Shown here one piece after another: positions 1 to 12,026 of a stretch of DNA of 64,000 bases. The stretch lies in NCBI RefSeq assembly GCF_000024885.1, contig NC_013512.1:434001-498000 (forward strand), in the 5' to 3' direction. The position numbers were made by a program, and so were the translations under genes. The notes beneath the pieces were generated by a model. It worked only from the letters and a program-made list of their open reading frames with translations. It did not search any database and was not told the origin of the DNA. Positions within the stretch are counted from its first letter, which is position 1; each line of letters starts with the position of its first letter. This DNA comes from Sulfurospirillum deleyianum DSM 6946 (GTDB lineage: Bacteria; Campylobacterota; Campylobacteria; Campylobacterales; Sulfurospirillaceae).

Positions 1-1
1 C

Positions 2-274
2 ATTACCCTTGAAAATCATGCGAAGAGTACGCAGTTGGTTGTAAAAGATAATGGAGGTGGCATTACGATTCGACCGATAGAGAAGATTTTCGAGCCTTAC
101 GTGAGTACCAAAGAGCAAAATGAGGGGACAGGCATTGGACTTTATATGGCAAAATTGATTATTGAGAAGAGCATGAAAGGAAGACTAGAAGCTCGAAATG
201 AAAAGGATGGGGCTGTTTTTATTGTAGAAGTTGAGAAAGGCTTCAAAGAGGCGCTTGGCGGGACACCTCTTTGA
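2..274 (+). CDS. Sensor histidine kinase, C-terminal end (partial)
   Basis: Only the ATP-binding end of this gene lies in the window; the frame is open to the left edge. The visible 90 residues hold the HATPase G1 box (DNGGGI), an F-box-like segment (IFEPYVSTK) and the G2 box (GTGIGLYMAK), the usual order in the catalytic domain of two-component histidine kinases. Such kinases autophosphorylate a histidine and pass the phosphate to a response regulator, usually a neighbour. Partner and sensor domain are outside the window, so the signal is unknown. The gene converges with the lipoprotein gene that follows on the other strand. Confidence 0.85.
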   Translation: MTLENHAKSTQLVVKDNGGGITIRPIEKIFEPYVSTKEQNEGTGIGLYMAKLIIEKSMKGRLEARNEKDGAVFIVEVEKGFKEALGGTPL

Positions 275-342
275 AAATAAGAAGAAAATATGAAATTCGC
301 TTCTGGAAGTATAGAAACACAAAGTAAACGATCGGTTAACAA

Positions 343-849
343 TCAGTTGAGGCGGATAGACTCTTCTTGTGGCACACTTAAAACTTGATGGGCTTTGTCT
401 CGTTTACCTGCTGAGGCAGGTTCATGCGCTTTTTTCTTTTTGGTATAGACGGGAGAGGGTGCGATTTTGCCATTTTTAAAATAGGCAGCCTTAATTACGA
501 ACATTTCAGAGACACGCATACCATCAAAAGAGGCATAGACTAAGTCGCCTTCATTGGCAAGAACCGATTTGTGGTTAAAGTTGACATACGGCAATTTGCC
601 ATTGGTGGTTTCAATGCCATCAATCTCATAATTCCATCCCTCGCCATTGCCTGTTTGTTTGAGTGAGAGAATCACCCCTTTTATGTAGTTTTTTCCTACG
701 AGGTTTGAAAGTTTGGGATTGGTGTTTGTTTTTTGATTAGAAACATTTTTTGTGTTAATCTCAGGGGCAGGTGTCTTGGGTTGTGTGGTACAACCTTGCA
801 TAAAGAGCAGTAAAAATGTTACACAAAGAGACGATATAGTCTTTATCAA
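343..849 (-). CDS. Putative lipoprotein of unknown function
   Basis: A 168-residue protein with an N-terminal hydrophobic stretch followed by a lipobox (LLFMQGC, Cys20), so it is probably lipidated and anchored in the cell envelope. After the cysteine comes a low-complexity Pro/Thr/Asn/Lys-rich linker of about 35 residues, then a small domain of about 90 residues (around IKGVILSLKQTGNGEGW) and a basic tail. I do not recognise the domain. It is transcribed away from ssrA, with a shared intergenic region of about 75 bases. Confidence 0.7.
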   Translation of the reverse strand: MIKTISSLCVTFLLLFMQGCTTQPKTPAPEINTKNVSNQKTNTNPKLSNLVGKNYIKGVILSLKQTGNGEGWNYEIDGIETTNGKLPYVNFNHKSVLANEGDLVYASFDGMRVSEMFVIKAAYFKNGKIAPSPVYTKKKKAHEPASAGKRDKAHQVLSVPQEESIRLN

Positions 850-903
850 AGGGTATCCTTTTATATTTTTTGCGATTATAGCAAAAAAGTCGTTTTATTA
901 TGG

Positions 904-909
904 TAAAAT
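904..909 (+). promoter_or_regulatory. Putative -10 element of ssrA
   Basis: The sequence TATGGTAAAAT ends at 909, a good -10 region (TAAAAT) 15 bases before the mature tmRNA end. The same string TATGGTAAAAT occurs ahead of the ATP synthase genes at 61801-61811. No clear -35 is visible, which is common in Campylobacterota. Confidence 0.5.
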
Positions 910-923
910 TGCGTTCCTTCGAT

Positions 924-1301
924 GGGGCTGACATGGCTTCGACAGGAGTAGTTTTAGCTTATGGCTGCATGTCGGGAGTGAGGGTCTTCCGTTACACAAC
1001 CTTCAAACAATAACTGCTAACAACAGTAACTATCGTCCTGCTTACGCGCTAGCTGCGTAAGTTTAACAAATAATGGACTGCTCTCCCCTTTGATGCTATC
1101 TTAGGAGGTCTTGGAGAGTATCATAGATTTGATAGCTATATTACATGAACGCCTTTACATGTAATGAAGTTAAAGGCTCGTTTTGCGTAGTTTTCTGATT
1201 GTTGTACGAAGCAAAATTAAACACTATCAACAATATCTAAGCATGTAGACGTCATAGGTGGCTATTTTTGGACTGGGGTTCAATCCCCCACAGCTCCACC
1301 A
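924..1301 (+). ncRNA. ssrA: tmRNA (transfer-messenger RNA)
   Basis: The 5' end GGGGCTGACATGGCTTCGAC and the 3' end with GGGGTTCAATCCCCC, CAGCTCC and ACCA form the tRNA-like domain; 5' GGGGCTG pairs with 3' CAGCTCC. The tag reading frame at 1016-1060 codes ANNSNYRPAYALAA and stops with TAA, close to the Campylobacter type of tag. tmRNA rescues ribosomes stalled on broken messages and tags the product for proteolysis. The 3' end is the integration site of the island that follows, and the CCA end was kept intact. One TTACATGTAA palindrome lies inside at 1155-1164. The 3' boundary is firm; the 5' end is set by pairing. Confidence 0.95.
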
Positions 1302-1302
1302 T
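1278..1302 (+). other. Left attachment site of the island (attL) in ssrA
   Basis: The last bases of tmRNA, GTTCAATCCCCCACAGC followed by TCCACCAT. The first 17 bases are repeated exactly at 9943-9959, and CCACAGCTCCACCAT (1288-1302) is repeated exactly at 11520-11534. tRNA and tmRNA 3' ends are classic targets of tyrosine recombinases, and the integrase gene starts 187 bases downstream. Confidence 0.85.
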
Positions 1303-1411
1303 GAAAGAAATCTCAACCAATCTTAAATGATGCAAAGAATCCCTTTAAATAGGGATTTTAAAGCATATTCTAATCTCATTTAGTTTAAAATACTCTCAAT
1401 AAATCCCATCC

Positions 1412-1472
1412 TTTTAGGTACGTTTTTAGATACCTAATTCGTATTTTGGATTTACTCCATCTAAAAACGTAC
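1412..1472. repeat. Inverted repeat with candidate integrase arm or operator sites
   Basis: GTACGTTTTTAGAT at 1418-1431 is exactly inverted as ATCTAAAAACGTAC at 1459-1472. The left arm lies in TTTTAGGTACGTTTTT (1412-1427). TTTAGGTACGTTT recurs inverted inside the integrase gene (1718-1730), and TTTTAGGTACGTT recurs near the right end of the island (9864-9876). This fits arm-type sites of the integrase or a regulator controlling it; the role is inferred. Confidence 0.5.
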
Positions 1473-1488
1473 ATTAAAGAGGTTCAAA

Positions 1489-2739
1489 ATGCCTAAAATA
1501 AGCACTTCTCTACTCACAGATAAAGAGATTAAGAATTTTAAACCCGAAGATAAGCCCTACATAAAATCTGACATTAATGGACTTAGAATACTTATCCATC
1601 CAGATGGTCGCAAGATATGGGAATTTGTTTATACAAGCCCAACGCTATATAAAAAACGCAAATCAACCTTTGGAACGTACCCAAAAACCACCCTTAAAGA
1701 GGCAAGAGATAAAAGAGAAACGTACCTAAACCTCATCAAACAAGGCATAGACCCGATAGATGCACAACGTGAAGAGAAAGCTGAAGTAAAACTACAAAAA
1801 GAGAGTGATTTTTCAAACGTGGTCAATCTTTGGTTTCAATCGCAAGAGAGCCACATTGTTCACAGCACCTACAAAAAGAAGAGAGCCTTGTTTGATACAA
1901 CTGTCATTCCTGTGCTCAAACATAAATCAATTGCAGAAATAAAGCATGATGAGCTTGTGCAAATTATCAAAATAAAAGCCATACAAACACCCGAAACAGC
2001 GAAAAGACTTTTAGGCTACTTTCATGACCTTTGGCAGTTTGCATGTACGCATGGTTATTGTGATTTTAATATCGTGCCAAACATTCATGCTAAAAGCGTT
2101 TTACCAAAAATAGTTAAAAAGCACTACGCCTGCATTACAGACCCATCCATCTTGAAACAGCTTGTAAACAGCATTTACACTTATGGTGGACATATTAGCA
2201 CCAAAAATGCTTTAAAGTTCGTTTTACACGTTCCATTGCGTGCAGGTAATCTTGTATCGTTAAAGTGGGCATATGTGGATTTTGAAAAACACCTCATTAC
2301 TATACCGCGCAAAGAGATGAAAGCCAAAAGTGGTGATGATTTTATTTTGCCTCTTTCAGACGAAGCCATAGCTATTTTGCAAGAGCAATATTTGTATACA
2401 TCACACAAAGAATTTGTTTTTGTGGCTGACAATGGCTTGCACATTGATGAAGTGACACCAAGCAGAGCATTGCAACGCATGGGTTTCAATAACGAAACAC
2501 TAGGCAATAAACAACGCTTACACAGCTTTAGAGCCACGTTTCGTTCTTTGGTTGATACACACCAAATGGAACATAGAAGCTCTTATGAAGCCAAAGAAAA
2601 AGTGCTAGACCATATTGTAGGTAGTGGCGTTGAGCGGGCTTACACCCAAAAAGCGATTTATACGGAAGAGATGCGCTTACTCCTTACATGGTGGAGTGGA
2701 TACATCTTGGCAATGATGGACAGCCCTTTAAAAGGATAA
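1489..2739 (+). CDS. int: Tyrosine recombinase / integrase of the ssrA island
   Basis: A 416-residue phage P4-like integrase. The N-terminal 90 residues match the DUF4102 arm-binding type (GLRILIHPDGRKIWEF and FGTYPKTTLKEAR). A core-binding domain follows at about 100-200, then the catalytic domain with Arg251 (PLRAGN), His345 and Arg348 (HSFR), His375 (LDH) and the probable nucleophile Tyr385 (RAYTQ). All expected active-site residues are present, so it is probably functional. It sits directly beside its target ssrA and is followed after 4 bases by the next gene, suggesting co-transcription. It should insert and excise the element using the att repeats at 1278 and 9943. Confidence 0.93.
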   Translation: MPKISTSLLTDKEIKNFKPEDKPYIKSDINGLRILIHPDGRKIWEFVYTSPTLYKKRKSTFGTYPKTTLKEARDKRETYLNLIKQGIDPIDAQREEKAEVKLQKESDFSNVVNLWFQSQESHIVHSTYKKKRALFDTTVIPVLKHKSIAEIKHDELVQIIKIKAIQTPETAKRLLGYFHDLWQFACTHGYCDFNIVPNIHAKSVLPKIVKKHYACITDPSILKQLVNSIYTYGGHISTKNALKFVLHVPLRAGNLVSLKWAYVDFEKHLITIPRKEMKAKSGDDFILPLSDEAIAILQEQYLYTSHKEFVFVADNGLHIDEVTPSRALQRMGFNNETLGNKQRLHSFRATFRSLVDTHQMEHRSSYEAKEKVLDHIVGSGVERAYTQKAIYTEEMRLLLTWWSGYILAMMDSPLKG

Positions 2740-2743
2740 GCAC

Positions 2744-3460
2744 ATGGAAGCAGTAAAAATATCATGGTTCCTTAGAGATTGTTACCCAGAAGGAACCAGT
2801 GACGAAGAGATATTACAACGAGAAGCGGAACTACAACGCACGCAAGATAGAAACCGTAAGCTATTCTATGAAGCCAAAGAGTATTTAAAACGAAATGGCT
2901 CTGGGTTTAAAGAGTTTACTCCTACAGATTATGTTCACAGTCTTACAAAGCAAAAACAAATCTATGATGCGTATTGTAAGGCTTTAGATCCAAAGCATGA
3001 GCCTATAAACATACGAGAGACACTAGGGTTAGACGAAGGTATCCCTCATGCTTTTGAGGACATCCAAGAGCTAGCTTATCATGCAGAACTCTTTTTCAAA
3101 ACCATCTTCAATGTAGATTTAGAGCCAAGGGAGATTGGAGCATTGGCATGTGAAGCTAATTTTAAAGCCTACTTTGAAGAGGGATGTGACTACCTAGAAG
3201 ATAGAGTAAAGCGTTACAAAGAGAACCTCACTATAATGGAGCAAGCATTTATAAATGAAAAAAAGATAAAAATTGCTTGCGAAGTATTGGATACCCTTGG
3301 AGTTAAACATCCTAGAGAGCTTGAGAGAGCCAAGTATGTTATAGACAATTTTCAAGCAAATCAAAAAAGAAAACTACTGATTGAAATCCTCAATGTTAAC
3401 TTTCCATTTATAACCCAAACAACCGTTTTAAACAAAATTTATGAGAGCTCCCTACAATAG
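2744..3460 (+). CDS. Unknown protein downstream of the integrase
   Basis: A 238-residue, charged, mostly helical protein without signal peptide or membrane segment. I do not recognise a family. It starts 4 bases after the integrase stop and so is probably translated from the same message. The stop codon lies within a small hairpin (CTCCCTA / TAGGGAG, 3448-3464) that has no T-run. A role in integration or excision is possible from position only. Confidence 0.6.
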   Translation: MEAVKISWFLRDCYPEGTSDEEILQREAELQRTQDRNRKLFYEAKEYLKRNGSGFKEFTPTDYVHSLTKQKQIYDAYCKALDPKHEPINIRETLGLDEGIPHAFEDIQELAYHAELFFKTIFNVDLEPREIGALACEANFKAYFEEGCDYLEDRVKRYKENLTIMEQAFINEKKIKIACEVLDTLGVKHPRELERAKYVIDNFQANQKRKLLIEILNVNFPFITQTTVLNKIYESSLQ

Positions 3461-3574
3461 GGAGTCCTCAGATTTGCCCCTAAAACTACCCTCAAAATAG
3501 CCACCTTTTTCCCTTGAACATGAGACCCATAGCATTAAAATGCTCTCATCAAAACACAATGAGGAGCACTCGCT

Positions 3575-3754
3575 ATGACACAGACACAAAACGAAAATAT
3601 GCGCATTAAACAAGTAGCGGAAACCTATCCTGTTTCCAGAGCTAGCATTTGGCGATATGTCAAAGATGGGAAAATCAAGGCATACAAAATAACTGATGGC
3701 GTAACAATATTTAAACGCTCAGAGCTTGAGAGCTTTTTTAATGGCGAGAGCTAA
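3575..3754 (+). CDS. AlpA-like HTH regulator / excisionase
   Basis: A 59-residue protein with the pattern of AlpA/MerR-type helix-turn-helix proteins: a first helix (IKQVAETYPVS), a recognition helix (RASIWRYVKDGKI) and a wing ending in FKRSELESFF. In P4-like islands such proteins activate the integrase or act as excisionases. An AGGAG sits about 8 bases before the ATG, and a gene follows after 9 bases. Function is inferred from family and context. Confidence 0.8.
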   Translation: MTQTQNENMRIKQVAETYPVSRASIWRYVKDGKIKAYKITDGVTIFKRSELESFFNGES

Positions 3755-3763
3755 GGTTAGCCA

Positions 3764-3937
3764 ATGCAGAAGATTAGACTCTACATCGATTTTCAAGCAA
3801 CAAGAAATCAGTATCGTTTACGTTTAAAGGGCTCTAATGATGTAGCCCTTTACTGTTCAACTAAGAGGGAAGCGATTAGAGCACGATTGTTTCTGCGTAA
3901 GGTAATACGTGCTTTAGAACCAAGGGGAGAATTATGA
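3764..3937 (+). CDS. Small basic protein of unknown function
   Basis: A 57-residue, strongly basic reading frame (many Arg and Lys). Its stop overlaps the start of the ATPase gene in an ATGA junction, which supports it being a real, translationally coupled gene. The pattern RLYIDFQATRNQYRLRLKG and STKREAIRARLFLRKV resembles the arm-binding N-terminus of some phage integrases, so it may be a DNA-binding protein or a relict. The family is not certain. Confidence 0.5.
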   Translation: MQKIRLYIDFQATRNQYRLRLKGSNDVALYCSTKREAIRARLFLRKVIRALEPRGEL

Positions 3938-5925
3938 AACAAATCCAAGTCAAAAATAGCCCAGTAGCTATTGATAAATTTTGTAGTGAAATGAAAACTA
4001 AATTTGAAAGTTTTGGCATCTTTGCTTCAGAAGGAATTATGAAACTTCAAGAGCAGTTATGTGCTTCTTACAATAAAGTAATTAACGATAATCAAAGCGG
4101 AGAAGAACCTGTGATGTATGTTATGCCTCCCGCAACAGGAACAGGGAAAACTACAAGCATCAAGCTTTACTGTGCAATGATGCCTAAACATATAAGTGCT
4201 TTGATTATTGTCCCTAAAGTTGAACACGCAAAAGACGTTTGTAAATCAATCAATGACTATGCAAATGAAGAGATTGCCTATTGTTCTTATACTGTAACTG
4301 CTGATAACCCTGACCATAGCTTACGAGTTGAGATTGAGTCAATACAAAAGCATCGTATTATTGTCATCACCCATGAACGCTTTAGACGAGACATAAAATC
4401 AAAAAAATCAATCTTGGGATATGCTTCACCCAATGAAGAAAAAGATTGGTTGGGTCGAGTCGAGACTAAGAATAGAGATTTGATAATCGTAGATGAACAA
4501 ATCAACATGATTGAGTCGGAGACGCTAGAGAGTTATGAATTAGAAAAGATGAGTCTTCTTGCAAGGCAACTACCAAACGAAGAGACTAAAAAAATAGTTA
4601 ATACGATTGTTGCCATGTTGAAGAGCCTTATTGATGAGAGCCGAAAGATAACAGCTATCACAGAAGAAAAAAATATGGATTGGAATTTGTTTATTAGTCC
4701 ACTCATTGAAGTTTTAAGCAGCAAGGACACATCTTGGTATAAACTATCAAGAGCAGAATTTTCCTTTCGTAGAAATTATAAAAAAGAGTCTAATGAGATT
4801 GAGCTAAGAGAAGGCTTTATAGATGCACTAAAAAGTTTATGTTTGATACTTGATAGAAAGATGTTTTTTCACAAGCATGGAACCAATTGGACACTTCATG
4901 GAGTGAATTTGCTTTACCATGAGTTTGGAAGCCTAGTTGTCTTAGATGCAACATCAGAAGTTAATAAAAAAATTGAACTGATGAAGGAATGGATTAGCAT
5001 CAAAAATGAAAATCCAAAACATTTTAAAGCAGACAGACGATTGATTGAAAATATCAAAGTTCCAAATCCTAGAACCTACCATAATTGCAAACTTTACCTT
5101 TGTAAAGAAAATTGGGTACGACATTCACGCACTGGCTTAAACATAGACAATGAAGCTGAGTGTAAACTCACTTTAGCACCGTATGTCAAATCAATTAAAT
5201 TAAACATAGAGCCACATGATGATGCTTTGATTATTACCTACAAAGACATAGCAATCACAATGAAAAGCTTAATTGGACTAGAGAATGCAAATGTAATTCA
5301 TTGGGGGAACCACGATGCAACAAATGAGTACAGGCACTGCAATAAGGTTTTTATTGTCGGACTAAATCATTTACCATATAGCGTTATGTTTGAACAGTTT
5401 AGCTTTATTGTCGGTGGTGTAGAAACAGCTTATGAAGTTGAAGAAAATAGAAAAATAGAAATACCAAAACTTGCATCCAGTAAACTTGCCGAAGACATCA
5501 TTCAAGGTGTCTTTAGAAGTAGAGCAAGGGTTTCAAAAAATCATGATGGAAGCCCAGACTCAACAGAGTTTTTTATCTTTTTGGGGAAGGAAACCAATAA
5601 AAACAAAGAGATAATTGATTTAGCTTTAGAAGCTATGCCAAATATTCAAGTTTTAGATTGGGAATTAAAACATTCTGTGGCGATGCCCCCAAAGAAAAAT
5701 AAAGTTAGTGAGCAAATAGAAATGCTTATAGATGTTCTTGAAGCGTATGCCCATGATGGGTACAGTGACGTGCTTCGTGAAACCATTGAAAATAGAATGG
5801 CAGTAACAAAAGTAGTAATGAAAAGATTGCTCTCAAACCAAGTATGTATTAATGAACTTGGAAAAGCAGGTTTCAAATACGTTGCTGGAATTGGCAAAAC
5901 TAAGTCAGTGTTCATAATGCCTTAA
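3934..5925 (+). CDS. Large SF2 helicase-like ATPase of the island
   Basis: A 663-residue protein with a Walker A motif (ATGTGKT, residues 67-73), a DE-type Walker B (IIVDEQ, Asp187-Glu188), a motif III-like LDATSE near 337 and an arginine-rich motif (FRSRARVSK, near 526) in the place of SF2 motif VI. Spacing fits a divergent superfamily 2 helicase or translocase of the DEAD/DEAH fold, though the motifs are loose. It is the largest gene of the element, coupled to the small gene before it and followed by a cluster of inverted repeats. It could serve replication of the excised element or phage defence; the sequence does not decide. Confidence 0.7.
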   Translation: MKQIQVKNSPVAIDKFCSEMKTKFESFGIFASEGIMKLQEQLCASYNKVINDNQSGEEPVMYVMPPATGTGKTTSIKLYCAMMPKHISALIIVPKVEHAKDVCKSINDYANEEIAYCSYTVTADNPDHSLRVEIESIQKHRIIVITHERFRRDIKSKKSILGYASPNEEKDWLGRVETKNRDLIIVDEQINMIESETLESYELEKMSLLARQLPNEETKKIVNTIVAMLKSLIDESRKITAITEEKNMDWNLFISPLIEVLSSKDTSWYKLSRAEFSFRRNYKKESNEIELREGFIDALKSLCLILDRKMFFHKHGTNWTLHGVNLLYHEFGSLVVLDATSEVNKKIELMKEWISIKNENPKHFKADRRLIENIKVPNPRTYHNCKLYLCKENWVRHSRTGLNIDNEAECKLTLAPYVKSIKLNIEPHDDALIITYKDIAITMKSLIGLENANVIHWGNHDATNEYRHCNKVFIVGLNHLPYSVMFEQFSFIVGGVETAYEVEENRKIEIPKLASSKLAEDIIQGVFRSRARVSKNHDGSPDSTEFFIFLGKETNKNKEIIDLALEAMPNIQVLDWELKHSVAMPPKKNKVSEQIEMLIDVLEAYAHDGYSDVLRETIENRMAVTKVVMKRLLSNQVCINELGKAGFKYVAGIGKTKSVFIMP

Positions 5926-5931
5926 AGCCTA

Positions 5932-6325
5932 AATTCAGTGTGGACATTTTTCCCTAATAGAAAAGAAAAAACATTAGGGAATTTTGTCCACACTGAAATT
6001 GCTTAAAGTAGGGCTTTCCCTTCACTTTCTTGGCATTAAAAAGGAACCACCTTCCGTAGGCGTGGGAGAGCATTGGAATGAGGAAATGATAAGCCAAAAG
6101 CGACTGACTGACTTTGGCTTGCCAAAGGCGGGCAGTATCATTTTCGAATGGAACTGCTCTCTCTAAGCCTACGTTTATGAACAATAAATAAAAAAATAAA
6201 AACTTTTTTGGGATACCTCTCAAGCTAGCAACCAAAACAACAATTCCGCCCCTTAAGCCAAAGGCTCACCCCACCGAGGGGGTTCGCTTTCTTTGGCTTA
6301 AGAAACAAAATCAGTTTTGGTTGCG
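5932..6325. repeat. Cluster of three long nested inverted repeats, possible origin
   Basis: No gene is convincing here. Three hairpins follow one another: arms 5932-5958 / 5973-6000 (about 27 bases, core TTCAGTGTGGACA / TGTCCACACTGAA); arms about 6056-6090 / 6137-6173 (CGTAGGC ends, GGGAGAGCA / TGCTCTC inner part, imperfect); and nested arms AGCAACCAAAAC / GTTTTGGTTGC (about 6225-6236 / 6314-6324) enclosing CTTAAGCCAAAG / CTTTGGCTTAAG (6252-6263 / 6291-6302). The first may end transcription of the ATPase gene. Position after a helicase-like gene suggests a replication origin, which is inference. Confidence 0.6.
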
Positions 6326-6403
6326 ATACGAGAACCGAGAACAGGGGCAAAGGAACCAGAGTTGACTCCAAAGGAAGAGTGTAGCGTACCGCTTAACCAC
6401 ATG

Positions 6404-6536
6404 TACCTAATACACGCATACGAATAACATAATTTCTACCAATTTTGATTGGCTCAGCGTACTGATTAAATTTTAATCATATATACCAATTACGCGCAGA
6501 CGAATAGCATTATTTTTGTCTTATTTAATTGGCTCA
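6404..6536. repeat. Direct repeat, 53 bases, spaced 80 bases
   Basis: Imperfect copies at 6404-6456 and 6484-6536 share TACC.A.TAC.CGCA.ACGAATA.CAT.AT and end in ATTGGCTCA. The second copy contains the last codons of the XRE regulator on the minus strand; the first therefore looks like a duplicated 3' end of that gene and its trailer. It may instead mark protein-binding sites. Confidence 0.55.
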
Positions 6537-6781
6537 AAAAACTCATTTATTGAAACATTAAAAAGTATAGACAACCTAAAAAGATGCGACAAATTAAAAT
6601 GCTTTCCATGTTTATAGTTTTCAATATTGGCATAAAAACCTGATGACTTTTGTCCGATAGATAGAGCCACCTCAAGTTGGCTCATCCCCTTTTCATTGCG
6701 TATTCTTTTTACATTATAGGAAACAGTTCTAAAAAACAAATCCTCTTCTTCTGCTGTTACTATATCGGGGATATTCAGCAT
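6521..6781 (-). CDS. XRE/Cro-C1 family transcriptional regulator
   Basis: An 86-residue protein with a helix-turn-helix domain over residues about 20-75: NVKRIRNEKGMSQLEVALSIG, then the recognition helix region SSGFYANIENYKHGK, and a fourth helix around LFRLSILFNVSINEFFE. This is the Cro/C1 fold typical of phage and island repressors. It is divergent from the membrane operon that starts at 6890; the 108-base gap holds repeated operator-like sequences, so it probably represses itself and that operon. Confidence 0.85.
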   Translation of the reverse strand: MLNIPDIVTAEEEDLFFRTVSYNVKRIRNEKGMSQLEVALSIGQKSSGFYANIENYKHGKHFNLSHLFRLSILFNVSINEFFEPIK

Positions 6782-6786
6782 ATAAC

Positions 6787-6865
6787 CATTCCTATAGATA
6801 ATTTTCCCATAAGTTTAGTTGGAGTATAGTTTTCTATCAATTCTTTATAGAAATCATTCCTATAG
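6787..6865. promoter_or_regulatory. Putative XRE operators in the divergent promoter region
   Basis: CATTCCTATAG occurs exactly at 6787-6797, beside the regulator start, and at 6855-6865, just before the 6890 gene. Between them lie ATAGTTTTCTAT (6827-6838) and TATAG..CTATA half-sites (6846-6864). Repeated CTATAG half-sites in a divergent promoter next to an XRE gene are what operator sites look like. Confidence 0.5.
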
Positions 6866-6889
6866 GATTTTATCGGCTATTGGAGAATA

Positions 6890-7744
6890 ATGAAGTTCAA
6901 ATCACTTATCTTATTTTTTAAACAACTAGTCTTTTTACTAATTATGATTTTTCTACCTCATCAACTTATAAGTAAAACTGAAATAACTGAAAACACATTA
7001 AAGGCTTTTGACGAAGCATCTAGCAATCCAAAGAATGATACAACAGGGTTTCAATGGCAAGGTGTTGCTGGAACTGTATCATCTAAGTTATTATATTTCG
7101 ACAACGAAGAGAAGCTTTTTAAGTCAAGGAACAAAGCTAGTACGGTAACCAAAATGGAAGCTATGCGACAAATTTATGATGATGCTAATAATAATTCCGA
7201 AATATCTTTTGATGACAAATATAAAGAACAACAAGGCTTTAGAAAAAACATACTAACTCCAACAATGGTTTATGATATGTTGGTTCCTCTTGGGGGTCAA
7301 GAGCAAGACATAAAGAATGTTTATGAAAGAGCAAAAAGCGAAGAACATCTTACTGCTTTGATTGCTGAAACAACAGATAAAATAAAAAGAAGAGAAGTAC
7401 AAAATGAAATACTAACGGAAGGAGAACAAAATTTTGCACGTGTTGCATCATTAATATTTAGTTTGAAAGGTTTATTTGTCAGTTTACTCTTATTAATATT
7501 TTTTTATATTTTATACAAGCAACTAAAAAATCTCTTGGAAGCAATAAAACAACGAGTATGTAAATACAAAGTTCAAAAAATAGCAGAAGATGAAGCAATC
7601 AGAGCCACTGTTAATAAAGCAGTGAACGAAGATACCGAAGACGGGAAGGAACTACAAGAGCTTATCAATAAAGCAGTTGCAAAAGGCGATACTGAAACCG
7701 CTCAATCATTGCTAGCAATTTTAGAACGTAGAAAAGACAAATAA
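6890..7744 (+). CDS. Unknown membrane protein, first gene of the island membrane operon
   Basis: A 284-residue protein not recognised by family. It has an N-terminal hydrophobic segment (residues about 7-25, signal peptide or anchor), a polar, helix-rich region of about 160 residues, a strong membrane segment at about 186-210 (LFVSLLLLIFFYILYK) and a charged, probably cytoplasmic tail with two short similar repeats (TVNKAVNEDTEDG.E and LINKAVAKGDTET). The next gene follows closely, and the XRE regulator lies divergent upstream. Low-GC, AT-rich codon use fits the island. Function unknown. Confidence 0.65.
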   Translation: MKFKSLILFFKQLVFLLIMIFLPHQLISKTEITENTLKAFDEASSNPKNDTTGFQWQGVAGTVSSKLLYFDNEEKLFKSRNKASTVTKMEAMRQIYDDANNNSEISFDDKYKEQQGFRKNILTPTMVYDMLVPLGGQEQDIKNVYERAKSEEHLTALIAETTDKIKRREVQNEILTEGEQNFARVASLIFSLKGLFVSLLLLIFFYILYKQLKNLLEAIKQRVCKYKVQKIAEDEAIRATVNKAVNEDTEDGKELQELINKAVAKGDTETAQSLLAILERRKDK

Positions 7745-7762
7745 TAGCATATGGATAGGCAG

Positions 7763-8737
7763 ATGAAAAAAATTATTGTATTAATATTCTTAGCTTTTAC
7801 TATTTTGGGGGCAAAAGAAGAAGCAATGCAGATTACTGTTGGCTCTGAAAAATTTTCTATTCCTACGCCAGATAATTTCATAGAAATTAGTAAATTAGCA
7901 CCACAAATTGTTGATGCTTACAAAACCACACTTGGCTATAAAGCTAATATTCGAGGATATTATTTTATAAAGTCTGATTTTGAAAAACTGACAAAAAATG
8001 AAAACGCAAAGACAAAAGAAAGACGAGCAGTCATCTATACACCAACCGCTTATGAAAACATGAATATTAGCCAAAAGCAATTTAAAGAAATAGTCGATTC
8101 AACACTAAAAAAACTCAATATAGACGTTAAAAAAAATGATTTAACAAAACCCAATCAGACAATAGAAACCATACAAAAAAAAATGTCTATCGCAACAAAT
8201 GAAGCCATTAAGAAAGTAAAGACGAATGGTGCTTCTGTTCTTGGTATATCTTTTGAAAATGAAAACAGCTTAGGATATACCATGCTGTTAAAATATGAAG
8301 ATGAATCGAAAAAATCTTATATCCAAGTCATGGATGTGGGGATGATGTTCATCAATGGAAAAGTTCTAGTATCTTCATTTGCTACTGCATATGAAAAAGA
8401 AAGCGATATATCTTGGGTCAGACAAGAATCCAAAACGTGGGTGGATAAAATAATTACAATAAATGCCAACAAACCTACAAAGCAAAGATTATTTTCAACC
8501 TATACCTACGATGAACCAGCTACTAGACCAAGTTCTCTTGAGATGGACGAGAAAGAGAGAAAAGAACTCAATGAGTTTATTTCTAAAGGTGGTTTCACTG
8601 GTTCTCCAAAGACAACATCAGAACTTATTGATAAGCAAAAAGCACAATGGAAGAAAAATGCAGAAATAGAAGAAACCCGCAAAAAAGAAGTGTCGGGAGT
8701 GTCAACATTTTCAAGGTCATCCGAGGGGGTTGATTAG
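7763..8737 (+). CDS. Unknown secreted or periplasmic protein, second gene of the operon
   Basis: An unrecognised protein of 324 residues from the ATG at 7763. That start gives a clean signal peptide (MKKIIVLIFLAFTILGA) after a GGATAGG-type ribosome site; an in-frame ATG at 7751 would add four residues. The mature part has an alpha/beta look, with a region around GASVLGISFENENSLGYTMLL and hydrophobic beta-like stretches to about 230, then a polar, lysine-rich C-terminal tail that may be disordered. It lies between two membrane proteins, so a shared envelope complex is plausible. Confidence 0.65.
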   Translation: MKKIIVLIFLAFTILGAKEEAMQITVGSEKFSIPTPDNFIEISKLAPQIVDAYKTTLGYKANIRGYYFIKSDFEKLTKNENAKTKERRAVIYTPTAYENMNISQKQFKEIVDSTLKKLNIDVKKNDLTKPNQTIETIQKKMSIATNEAIKKVKTNGASVLGISFENENSLGYTMLLKYEDESKKSYIQVMDVGMMFINGKVLVSSFATAYEKESDISWVRQESKTWVDKIITINANKPTKQRLFSTYTYDEPATRPSSLEMDEKERKELNEFISKGGFTGSPKTTSELIDKQKAQWKKNAEIEETRKKEVSGVSTFSRSSEGVD

Positions 8738-8739
8738 TT

Positions 8740-8904
8740 ATGGGTAATGTATTTTCTTTCCTAATGACTTTAGTTCTTTTTGGGGTCGCTAGCATTTTTA
8801 TAGTAGCATCTTCAGTTGTCTTAGAATACGTATTACCATTGTTATTGTTTTGTGGTTTAGTGTTAGGTTTAATTTTGCATATTGTAGACAAGAATAAAAA
8901 ATAG
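8740..8904 (+). CDS. Small two-helix membrane protein, third gene of the operon
   Basis: A 54-residue reading frame starting 3 bases after the previous stop, with GAGGGGG some 11 bases upstream. It is almost wholly hydrophobic: two predicted membrane helices (residues about 5-27 and 31-49) and a short basic end (DKNKK), which favours a cytoplasmic C-terminus. Tight spacing and a hydrophobic pattern unlikely by chance support a real gene. Function unknown. Confidence 0.55.
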   Translation: MGNVFSFLMTLVLFGVASIFIVASSVVLEYVLPLLLFCGLVLGLILHIVDKNKK

Positions 8905-9061
8905 CTTCAAAAAACTCTAAATTTGCATGAGATATTAGAGATGCACCTCATCTCCCACCCTCGAAATAACTATTTCCCCATAGGGCTTCACTAGAGAAGA
9001 GCCAAGCAGAAATATTTTTCTACAAAAGAAATTAATTGAACTTAGTTCTACTAGAGCCAAG

Positions 9062-9743
9062 GCGATTTAAAATCGCGTTCTGTACTGCCTAAAGGTTCAT
9101 TTAAGGCTAAAATCGCCTTAAATTTATCTTGGTTAACGGATTTTAAATCCGAGTGATGTCAAAGCCGATTTCAAATCGGTGCTTAAACCAATTATAAGGA
9201 TTTGAAATCCTTATGTGAACCTTGGGCTCAATGGCTTCGCTATTGGCTATCCAAATGAGAGAGCCAAAGGACTGCTGTCCAAAATAGGCATCAGTATGCC
9301 AAGTGGACAAAGGAATTAGATTGGCTGTCTTTAATGGACATCCAACATTAAAGCTAAGTAGACATGGACTGCTCGCCAAAATTGCTACCAGTATGCGTAA
9401 TTGGCTCTAAGCTTACTATCCATAATGGCGAGTAAGCAAATGATGGTTTTGGGCTTCTACGAGAAATTCGTATTAAGCAAAGGGGGTCTTAGACGGCTCG
9501 CCAAAACGGCTAGCCGTTATACAAGTGGATTTGGTCTGCGCCATAACTCGTACACCATTGGCTCTGATACGCTAGCTAAAATGGTAACCGTGGCTCTAGT
9601 ACGCTACTAATAATTCGTATCGTGCTTTGTGCGCTATCCAAAATTGCCATCGTCTATAACTTCTCGCCAAAATGGCGACAAGCATAACGGTTGTCCAAAA
9701 TAGACATCTGTGTTTTGGACGGCTACTAGAAACAAGTAGCCGT
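9062..9743. repeat. Tandem array of about 19 short hairpins with variable stems
   Basis: No convincing gene lies between 8905 and 9942. Hairpins follow each other at 28-51 bases centre to centre. Group A (9062-9214) has a core like GATTTnAAATC with changing flanks: GCGATTTAAAATCGC (9062), TTAAGGC/GCCTTAA (9101), CGGATTTTAAATCCG (9137), CCGATTTCAAATCGG (9165), and a 21-base palindrome at 9194-9214. Group B (9243-9743) has units of 23-27 bases with a loop near CCAAAAT and usually a 1x1 mismatch in the stem, for example ACGGCTcGCC/GGCtAGCCGT (9493-9517), TTGGcTGTC/GACAtCCAA (9321-9345), ACGcTAC/GTAtCGT (9601-9623), CTTcTCGCC/GGCGAcAAG (9660-9682), ACGGCTACT/AGTAGCCGT (9719-9743). Stem changes are paired, so the fold is kept. 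Confidence 0.8.
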
Positions 9744-9863
9744 TACACGTACAGTAAGGCTTTGGCTTTTGTGGTAGTTCTAAGGTCGTTAGGCTTAATT
9801 TTATAACTATTTTATGATACTATTCAATCTTGATAAATGAGAAATTAAAAACGTAAGATGTGA

Positions 9864-9888
9864 TTTTAGGTACGTTGGAAGGTACGTT
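9864..9888. repeat. Right-end copies of the island's GGTACGTT motif
   Basis: TTTTAGGTACGTT (9864-9876) repeats the motif at 1412-1424 near the left end; a second GGTACGTT is at 9881-9888. Placement just inside both attachment sites fits arm-type integrase sites. Confidence 0.5.
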
Positions 9889-9942
9889 GTGGTTTTTAAA
9901 ACAACGCTTAAATGCCTATATTTAGGTGTTAAAATGCTTTAA

Positions 9943-9966
9943 GTTCAATCCCCCACAGCCCACCAT
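9943..9966 (+). other. Inner attachment site (attR of the inner element)
   Basis: GTTCAATCCCCCACAGC (9943-9959) is identical to the tmRNA 3' part at 1278-1294, followed by CCACCAT with one base missing compared with TCCACCAT. It closes the element that carries the integrase (about 8.7 kb). Confidence 0.85.
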
Positions 9967-9982
9967 TCCATCAAAATTAACC

Positions 9983-10152
9983 AATAGACTTTTTTCATAA
10001 CCCATTGAAAAAAGAGTATCGCTCATAGCACATCACTTTTTAAAATTAAAAACATCGCCATAGCTTTGGCTATGACTCAATTTTGAGTTTTAAAAATTAA
10101 CGCACTCTAACCAAACTCTTTATCTTTTCAAGGGTTATGAAAGAAGTCTAAT
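9983..10152. repeat. MITE-like element of about 170 bases with long inverted ends
   Basis: The left end AATAGACTTTTTTCATAACCC (9983-10003, one string of 21 positions with core TTCATAACCC) is inverted at 10132-10152 (GGGTTATGAA...GTCTAAT), and the pairing continues inward through ATTGAAAA / CTTTTCAA. The middle holds two more hairpins, CATAGC tttg GCTATG (10059-10074) and ACTCAATTTTGAGT (10075-10088). Part of it (10025-10061) recurs with two mismatches at 20673-20709, so it is a dispersed repeat. No coding sequence inside. A non-autonomous transposable element is likely but unproven. Confidence 0.55.
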
Positions 10153-10289
10153 AAGAAAATTGAGCTAATTTTTTACAATTTTGAAGAAAATAAAAAGCAC
10201 TGTAATCAAAAATATTGATAGCCTAAAAGGAAGTAGTGCACGGCTAGAAATGGAAGTAATTGAATCTTATCTTATAATATTTATTTCGA

Positions 10290-10295
10290 TATAAT
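10290..10295 (+). promoter_or_regulatory. Putative -10 box of the fic gene
   Basis: TATAAT within CGATATAATGG, 36 bases before the start codon. The segment is very AT-rich and a second TATAAT lies at 10273-10278, so the exact start of transcription is uncertain. Confidence 0.4.
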
Positions 10296-10331
10296 GGTCA
10301 TTCAAAAACATTTAAAGAGAAGTAGTTAAAT

Positions 10332-11498
10332 ATGATAGAAGAACTAGATAGTAAAAAAATTACGATTCCTGACCCATCTTGGGGAAGTGATTTGGCTAAT
10401 ATTATTTTGGATTTGGAAAAGCTAAGAACTCGACATCTTGGTGGCAATGTTCCTCCATATATTTTTTTTCAGCTTAAAAATATCTTTCAAATTTTAGAGA
10501 CCTTAGGTTCTGCTAGAATCGAAGGGAACAACACCACATTATCTGAGTATGTTGAAAAACTTATTGATACCCATGTCAAAGACGAAAGTGATGATGAAAT
10601 AAAAAATCTAGAGAATGCCATACAATTTATAGAAGAAAACACCGATGAAAAGACTTTTTTTAATCGTGCTTATATCTCAGAGATTCATAAAATTATTACG
10701 AAAGATTTAACCCCACCACCACAGGGGGAAGGTTCTAAATACTCGGGAGAACTAAGAAAACATGATGTGAGCATTAAAAAATCAGGTCACACTCCACCCG
10801 TACATTTTTTACTTCCTGAATACTTTGAAAGATTTGTAGAGTTCATCAATGAAGAATATAAAGAACAATATCAACTTTTGATGGTAGCTATTGCTCATCA
10901 TAGATTTGAATACATCCATCCCTTTGACAACGGAAATGGTCGTATGGGAAGACTTCTAAATTATGCATTTTTAATAAAATTGGGATTTAAAGTAAAACAA
11001 GGAAGGCTTATCAACCCTTCTTCCGTTTTTTATACCGATAGAGACCAATACTATGACATGCTTTCACGTGCTGATAGTTTAGAAACCAATGATTTATTGG
11101 CATGGTGTGAATATTTTTTAAGAGGTCTAAAAAATGAGATTGAAAAAATAGATCATCTTTTAAAAAAAGAGTATGTGCAAAAAGAGATACTTTTACCAAC
11201 GTTAAAAATAGCGCTTGAAAGAGAACATATCACAAAACAAGAATTTGACATCTTGTCTTATCTTATCAAAAAAGATGATATGGCAATGAAAGCTGAAGAG
11301 CTTAGTACATTTGGGATAACAGACTCCAAGAAAAAATCGTTAGTTATCAATAAATTAAGAGATAAAAAAATGATTGTTCCTATAACAGATGGTGGGCGAA
11401 TATACACCGTACGCTTTGTAAACAACTATCTCTTGCGAGGAATTATGCAAGTGTTAAAAGAAAATGGGTTTGTATCTGATTTTTTGAATAATAACTAG
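10332..11498 (+). CDS. Fic-family protein (AMP transferase) with N-terminal inhibitory motif
   Basis: A 388-residue Fic protein. The active-site motif HPFDNGNGRMGR starts at His196, with all residues needed for nucleotide transfer to a target hydroxyl. The self-inhibitory motif SxxxEG/N is present as SARIEGN (residues 60-66), which places it in the class with the inhibitory helix inside the N-terminal part. A Fic N-terminal domain precedes, and a probable winged-helix DNA-binding part fills residues about 290-375. It lies alone between the inner and outer attachment sites, so it is cargo of the older, outer integration. Target unknown; no separate antitoxin is seen, which the built-in inhibitor explains. 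Confidence 0.9.
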   Translation: MIEELDSKKITIPDPSWGSDLANIILDLEKLRTRHLGGNVPPYIFFQLKNIFQILETLGSARIEGNNTTLSEYVEKLIDTHVKDESDDEIKNLENAIQFIEENTDEKTFFNRAYISEIHKIITKDLTPPPQGEGSKYSGELRKHDVSIKKSGHTPPVHFLLPEYFERFVEFINEEYKEQYQLLMVAIAHHRFEYIHPFDNGNGRMGRLLNYAFLIKLGFKVKQGRLINPSSVFYTDRDQYYDMLSRADSLETNDLLAWCEYFLRGLKNEIEKIDHLLKKEYVQKEILLPTLKIALEREHITKQEFDILSYLIKKDDMAMKAEELSTFGITDSKKKSLVINKLRDKKMIVPITDGGRIYTVRFVNNYLLRGIMQVLKENGFVSDFLNNN

Positions 11499-11519
11499 CG
11501 CAAGACATGTTTTGGCTGT

Positions 11520-11534
11520 CCACAGCTCCACCAT
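11520..11534 (+). other. Outer attachment site (attR of an older element)
   Basis: CCACAGCTCCACCAT equals tmRNA 1288-1302 exactly, 22 bases after the fic stop. Genes typical of the core chromosome begin right after it. Together with the copies at 1278 and 9943 it frames two tandem insertions. Confidence 0.75.
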
Positions 11535-11588
11535 CGTAATTATCTTACTTTTTTGTATAATGCTTTTAAATTCTTTTTAGGAGCATAG

Positions 11589-12026
11589 ATGATTTGGTAT
11601 ATTTGGGCAATTTTAGGTGTTTTTGCCATTGTCTTTGAGATTGCCACTCCTACGTTTTTTGCCATCTTTTTAGGCTTAGGCTTTTTTGGCTCCGCACTGA
11701 TTTCCTACTTCGTTCAAGATTCTCTTATTTTGCAAATCATGGTAGCCCTTTTGGGTATGTTTGTGGGTGCCTTTGTCTTTAAAAAAAGGCGCATTGCTGA
11801 TGTTCCCTCTTCTAAAATTGGACAATCGGATGAGTTTATTGGTGTTGGGGGCAAAGTGATTGAAACCATTAGCCCTGAAATAAAGGGACGGGTAAGGCTT
11901 GATATTCCTGTTTTAGGAAGCAGTGAGTGGGATGCCAAAAATATTGCCGATACAACCTTAGAAAAGGGTGTTTTGATTGAAATTGTTGCGATTCATGGGC
12001 ATTATCTTGATGTTCATTCAAAATAA
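11589..12026 (+). CDS. NfeD family membrane protein
   Basis: A 145-residue protein with two or three membrane helices in the first 70 residues (WYIWAILGVFAIVFEIATPTFFAIFLGLGFFGSALI) and a C-terminal small beta-barrel (OB-like) domain (IGVGGKVIETISPEIKGRVRLDIPVLGSSEWDAKN region), the architecture of short NfeD proteins. These lack the protease part of long NfeD and pair with SPFH proteins in membranes. Its neighbour 11 bases downstream is exactly such an SPFH gene. An AGGAG precedes the ATG. Confidence 0.88.
   Translation: MIWYIWAILGVFAIVFEIATPTFFAIFLGLGFFGSALISYFVQDSLILQIMVALLGMFVGAFVFKKRRIADVPSSKIGQSDEFIGVGGKVIETISPEIKGRVRLDIPVLGSSEWDAKNIADTTLEKGVLIEIVAIHGHYLDVHSK

Follow-up and report, generated by a model that had tools for sequence, protein, structure and literature searches.

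What keeps a tandem series of hairpins folding alike while the letters of their stems change from one unit to the next? The question is raised by an array of short hairpins in Sulfurospirillum deleyianum DSM 6946, contained in the window studied here, a stretch of 64,000 nucleotides that corresponds to positions 434001–498000 of a single-contig genome of 2,306,351 bp (coordinates below are those of the window unless the genome is named). A tandem series of this kind, in which geometry and loop are kept but the letters of the stem are not, is an uncommon internal trace of structural selection, with one locus serving as its own alignment. An earlier note, made from the bare letters, had described such an array and attributed it to selection on structure and not on protein.

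The island and its genes

The array lies 3′ of a predicted membrane operon and just within the right end of an ssrA-borne island, the location first proposed for it. The island has its left attachment site in the 3′ end of ssrA, the tmRNA gene (924–1301, plus strand; ARAGORN, and Rfam RF00023 with 164 bits), and a second copy of this end, GTTCAATCCCCCACAGCCCACCAT, at about 9943–9966 on the plus strand marks the right end (attR). The island encodes, also on the plus strand, a tyrosine integrase with a P4-type arm-binding domain (1489–2739; Pfam PF13356 and PF00589) and a DEAD/ResIII-type helicase of 663 aa (3934–5925; Pfam). Two plus-strand direct repeats, AGGTACGTTG, at 9867–9889 are likely arm-type sites of the integrase, and the same stretch is common to other Sulfurospirillum islands. 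Beyond attR, a third ssrA-like end at ~11518–11534 closes a tandem segment (9970–11540), and the segment between the two ssrA-like ends holds a lone Fic gene (10332–11498) that matches the SoFic defence model. The 663-aa helicase has a distant homologue at genome positions 1131789–1135156, adjoining another tyrosine integrase, which suggests that the genome carries another island of related type.

The membrane operon (6890–8904, plus strand) runs upstream of and parallel to the array. Its first protein, a membrane protein of 284 aa (6890–7744, plus strand), is without a Pfam family and has a C-terminal tail of ~55 residues, ending KGDxExAQxLLxIL, in common with proteins of two other genomes of the order; these tail-sharing membrane proteins (ORFs L053 9643–10416 and L054 9077–10039) occur across genera, and their outer parts are unrelated. 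The second, an orphan protein of 328 aa (7751–8737, plus strand) that is predicted to be exported, is likewise without a Pfam family. It had no relative in 399 genomes of the order and no match in GTDB contigs, and a single-sequence structure prediction was uninformative (pLDDT 38). A search of viral contigs with the helicase, the integrase and both membrane-operon proteins returned no match.

A second strongly structured non-coding stretch occurs in the same island, in the gap between the helicase gene and an HTH gene (5930–6390), with a fold z of −7.3 for the folding window that starts at 5881 and −3.2 for the one at 6241, and with a long hairpin, GTGTGGACA...TGTCCACAC, at ~5940–5990. Downstream (3′) of the HTH gene, direct repeats CACGCATACGAATAACATAATTT / ACGCGCAGACGAATAGCATTATTT and adjacent copies of ATTGGCTC at 6400–6520 form an operator- or origin-like region. 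Similarity between the intergenic region 6380–6560 and the array was not above that of shuffles.

Anatomy of the array

The array consists of five early palindromes (9059–9215) followed by fourteen paralogous units (9243–9743), all given here on the plus strand; the extent and number first reported were about right. The GATTT-N-AAATC core that, itself or as a close variant, was originally ascribed to all the early elements is present in four of the five, whose outer pairs differ: palindrome 1 (9059–9079, GATTT-A-AAATC, −6.1 kcal/mol), palindrome 3 (CGGATTTTAAATCCG, 9137–9151, −5.3 kcal/mol), palindrome 4 (CCGATTTCAAATCGG, 9165–9179, −4.4 kcal/mol) and palindrome 5 (TATAAGGATTTGAAATCCTTATG, 9193–9215, −7.7 kcal/mol). 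The second (9099–9123, −8.8 kcal/mol) is instead a perfect hairpin of 9 bp, a 7-nt loop (TAAAATC) and 9 bp, and its 25-nt frame matches that of the later units. On the minus strand, a sigma-70-like promoter scoring 11/12 (TTCACA-17-TATAAT) lies at 9191–9219, within palindrome 5, and points leftward out of the array.

Twelve of the fourteen later units have a common frame, made up of an outer stem of 4 bp, a position 5/21, an inner stem of 4 bp and a 7-nt A-rich loop close to CAAAATN. Written from 5′ to 3′ in these segments, the series opens with u1 (9243–9267, TTGG C TATC CAAATGA GAGA G CCAA), u2 (9271–9295, ACTG C TGTC CAAAATA GGCA T CAGT) and u3 (9321–9345, TTGG C TGTC TTTAATG GACA T CCAA), the latter two with 8/8 pairs. 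Unit u4 (9368–9392, ACTG C TCGC CAAAATT GCTA C CAGT) has the same frame and flanks as u2 and a weak fold (−2.1 kcal/mol), and is followed by u5 (9412–9436, CTTA C TATC CATAATG GCGA G TAAG). The twelve units of the common frame align ungapped at 25 nt; the other two differ by an indel, u6 (9454–9477, CTTC TACG AGAAATT CGTA TT AAG) having a variant frame and u8 (9532–9557, TGGT C TGCG CCATAACT CGTA C ACCA) a frame of 26 nt. Between these lies u7 (9493–9517, ACGG C TCGC CAAAACG GCTA G CCGT). The fold is weak again in u9 (9568–9592, TACG C TAGC TAAAATG GTAA C CGTG; −2.1 kcal/mol), and u11 (9630–9654, TGCG C TATC CAAAATT GCCA T CGTC) barely folds at −0.6 kcal/mol with its loop motif intact. The remaining units are u10 (9600–9624, TACG C TACT AATAATT CGTA T CGTG), u12 (9659–9683, ACTT C TCGC CAAAATG GCGA C AAGC), u13 (9687–9711, ACGG T TGTC CAAAATA GACA T CTGT; 8/8 pairs) and u14 (9719–9743, ACGG C TACT AGAAACA AGTA G CCGT; 8/8 pairs, with C-G at the mismatch position).

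Mean column identity is 66% over the 25 nt. Among the 12 aligned units, T6, A13 and A20 are invariant, and conservation reaches 90% or more for C5 and A14, the inner stem starting with the invariant T-A pair; the stems vary, whereas the loop and C5-T6...A20 are conserved. A 1×1 mismatch had been described as usual at one place in the stem, commonly C opposite T. Most units do keep this place, position 5, which is C (once T), but its partner may be T, C or G, so that the position is sometimes paired. The linkers shorten along the array, from 25 nt to 3 nt. Several units are mosaics beyond the u2/u4 pair: u7 and u14 have the same outer stem and flanks with different tips, u6 and u14 have the same upstream linker and tip with different outer stems, and u10 resembles the 5′ half of u14 fused to the 3′ half of u6.

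Pairing beyond chance

Hairpin density against shuffled controls, which the earlier note had offered as a criterion, would have been misleading. Unrelated coding windows given the same scoring contained 10–11 hairpins per ~540–650 nt, and a dense-hairpin region in L266 proved to be an amidase gene; because coding DNA reaches similar counts, raw density is a poor statistic. Such generic counts are what would be expected if the hairpins were due to chance in a window merely rich in short inverted repeats, an explanation that is rendered highly improbable by the fold of the region and by tests of pairing. The 706-nt stretch gave fold z scores of −9.4 as plus-strand RNA, −6.4 as minus-strand RNA and −11.9 as plus-strand single-stranded DNA (20 shuffles each), far below the scores of long intergenic gaps elsewhere in the window or at related loci, which reached at most −4.4.

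For a choice of units blind to pairing, sites were selected for their match to the loop-side motif CTNNCCAAAAT, up to 2 mismatches being allowed, and the array contained nine of them. At least six of eight pairs were formed in 8/9 of these, compared with 5.1% of 8,997 background sites. All 362,880 reorderings of whole 3′ arms among the nine motif-selected units were then evaluated. The outer stem formed 34/36 pairs against a permuted mean of 18.8 (p = 2.2e-5), whereas the inner stem alone gave a weak, non-significant signal (28/36 pairs, mean 25.3, p = 0.14); the two stems jointly gave p = 5.5e-6. Sliding the arms by 1–4 bases reduced pairing from 62/72 to 19–31/72. The 12 aligned units, which were partly chosen for pairing, contained 30 double-change cells against 11.5 after shuffling, a number reached by 0/500 shuffles.

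The array is thereby confirmed as real and beyond chance, and structural selection, or at least historical constraint, is supported, carried mainly by the outer stem. The attribution to structure and not to protein stands on the motif-selected pairing and the arm permutation. The claim that stems differ in ways that preserve pairing is borne out for the outer stem but not significantly for the inner stem alone, and the claim of a conserved fold has to allow for the weak folding of the units at 9368, 9568 and 9630.

The folded strand

Arms that differ between units and match within a unit imply that a single strand, whether RNA or DNA, folds at present or did so formerly. A dimer binding double-stranded DNA would need constant arm letters, and therefore cannot explain arms that vary yet remain symmetric. 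Several features favour a plus-strand RNA: A makes up 57% of the plus-strand loop bases (48/84), as unpaired RNA would be expected to show, the RNA fold is better on that strand, G+C rises to 44% in the unit region from 31–36% in the flanks, and the upstream operon is parallel, with no plus-strand terminator-like site found between 8905 and 9058. GC enrichment of long intergenic regions is an established indicator of templates for structured RNA (PMC8632094). G-T pairs outnumber A-C mismatches by only 6 to 2, too small a difference to be significant as an indicator of strand, and no clear plus-strand promoter was found for the array.

Our preferred reading, a tentative one at somewhat short of an even chance, is that the array encodes a multi-hairpin RNA, which would be transcribed from the plus strand and show repeated loops to a protein. 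The RNA would most likely be made as a long 3′ tail of the membrane-protein operon, or else as a separate transcript. In each unit, the A-rich loop of 7 nt (CAAAATN) would be carried by a stem whose C/pyrimidine position and invariant U-A pair are at a fixed distance. Loop and geometry, and not stem letters, might then be read by a protein, encoded by the island, by the host or by an invading element, and the many copies could bind or titrate it in the way that CsrB-type sponge RNAs do. In a related but very improbable version, the transcript would be cut into ~14 small hairpin RNAs, or would supply antisense RNAs acting via the CAAAAT loops. The regular units and short linkers, chiefly at 9592–9743, would suit such processing, and some linkers are complementary to loop-like sequence, which hints at alternative pairings; this complementarity is, however, marginal (permutation p about 0.04), and the island showed no recognisable family of dedicated nucleases or effectors.

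The weak folds of u4, u9 and u11 count against a present function of every unit, and a fossil array is possible because these three units barely fold. In its full form, this explanation holds that the array is a palindromic repeat family produced by local duplication and recombination in the island, that switches of template from one arm to the other have restored its symmetry, and that it is now decaying without function. It would accommodate the mosaic units and the occurrence of the array in a single genome of those sampled, and is the most serious competitor of the RNA reading, although we consider it unlikely on balance. Copying of arms would give perfect palindromes, whereas the imperfect position 5/21 stays put in most units; conservation is highest in the loop motif; and the genome contains no further copy at a model E<=1.

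The folded strand could also be DNA, with the hairpins serving, much as attC sites do, as repeated, structure-recognised sites when the island is replicated, transferred or rearranged. The array lies directly inside attR of an integrative element, its fold z as single-stranded DNA is −11.9, varying yet symmetric arms need a folded strand of either kind, and the tip/frame mosaics could stem from recombination. Against these points, there are no attC R boxes paired at the spacing required, and no cassettes separate the units. Inspection of the six largest of ten tyrosine-recombinase frames recognised no integron integrase (one is XerH-like), no HUH relaxase family was present among the Pfam-scanned island genes, and the one Y1 transposase of the genome is 124 kb away with palindromes that do not match. 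We regard recognition as single-stranded DNA as doubtful, less probable than decay. A broader proposal, more speculative still and distinctly improbable, is that the array represents a new class of repeat RNA (or single-stranded DNA), in which modules, namely exchangeable outer frames and tips, would multiply and recombine, shape and loop word being inherited while stem letters diversify, so that the mobile island would carry a multivalent code of shapes.

Search for relatives

The array is an orphan, self-aligning structural array with no relative in the databases and genomes searched. At the Rfam gathering score, positions 1–12000 of the window yielded only the tmRNA, and a permissive search gave chance matches alone. 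BLAST searches with the array found no relative in plasmids, in phages or in 44 genomes of the family, the family matches with E below 1e-6 being integrase arm sites. A covariance model returned 12 matches at E<=1 in the organism's own genome, all within the array, and no more than one chance match per other genome in 44 family and 399 order genomes. No array was present at the right ends of sister islands, in nine islands with related integrases or at the second helicase locus of the genome. A two-unit DNA pattern run on viral contigs and GTDB contigs gave no relative among the matches listed, of which the densest were simple tandem repeats of Nostoc and the others were chance-like. In these Nostoc-type genomes (Nostoc and Komarekiella; L143, L152, L160 and L124), a tandem unit of ~23 nt, CGCCRAAATAGCAAATGMGNT, is matched by the loop pattern; these are unrelated simple repeats.

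If the preferred reading is correct, the array would be an unclassified multi-hairpin RNA on an island of the Campylobacterota, a group in which C. jejuni is reported to be without CsrB-type sponges. If the strand is DNA, it would be an array of structure-read sites outside integrons. Either reading, if true, would make the locus a compact test object for recognition of shape alone.

Comparison with known systems

The sponge RNAs CsrB and RsmZ resemble the array in having many hairpins with differing stems and a common loop motif (CAAAATN in the 14 units here). The geometry of the array is stricter, however, and its motif is not that of CsrA, whose binding sequence GGA occurs in 0/14 loops. 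Since no loop carries GGA and homologues of CsrB/C are reported absent from C. jejuni (PMC4894983), the array is not a member of this family.

Integron attC arrays are also tandem sites in a mobile element in which the arms vary and the folded hairpin is kept, as it is here (outer stem, p = 2.2e-5). Sites of the attC type are about 57–140 nt long, whereas the array units measure 25 nt and have no cassettes between them; no pair of boxes RYYYAAC ... GTTRRRY 40–160 nt apart was found on either strand. REP/BIME elements with their RAYT transposases have in common with the array short, imperfect, clustered palindromes, and a RAYT-like Y1 transposase is present in the genome. The array units are, however, neither dispersed (12/12 model matches lie inside the array) nor constant in the stem, and array model R1 matched nothing in the 3.3 kb around the Y1_Tnp gene. 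This sole RAYT-like gene (L269; genome 310039–310365) has at its flanks an inverted repeat, GGGTCAGGGCTTTACTTT / AAAGTAAAGCTCTGACCC, that is unrelated to the array units. The array bears neither a REP signature nor paired attC boxes, as had been surmised.

CRISPR arrays likewise have short palindromic units at regular spacing. A CRISPR array was rejected, in agreement with the earlier note, as there is no constant repeat and the longest exact repeat is 12 nt; cas families were absent from the seven or eight island proteins examined with Pfam and PADLOC. For a type III toxin–antitoxin system with ToxI repeats, no ToxN family was found among the scanned island proteins, and the next gene downstream is Fic, beyond attR. 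The mode of recognition proposed here is like that of IRE-like and phage operator hairpins, in which what is read is the loop sequence together with a defect at a set distance, the stem letters being free; those hairpins are single or paired elements, whereas the locus described here is an array of 14 units.
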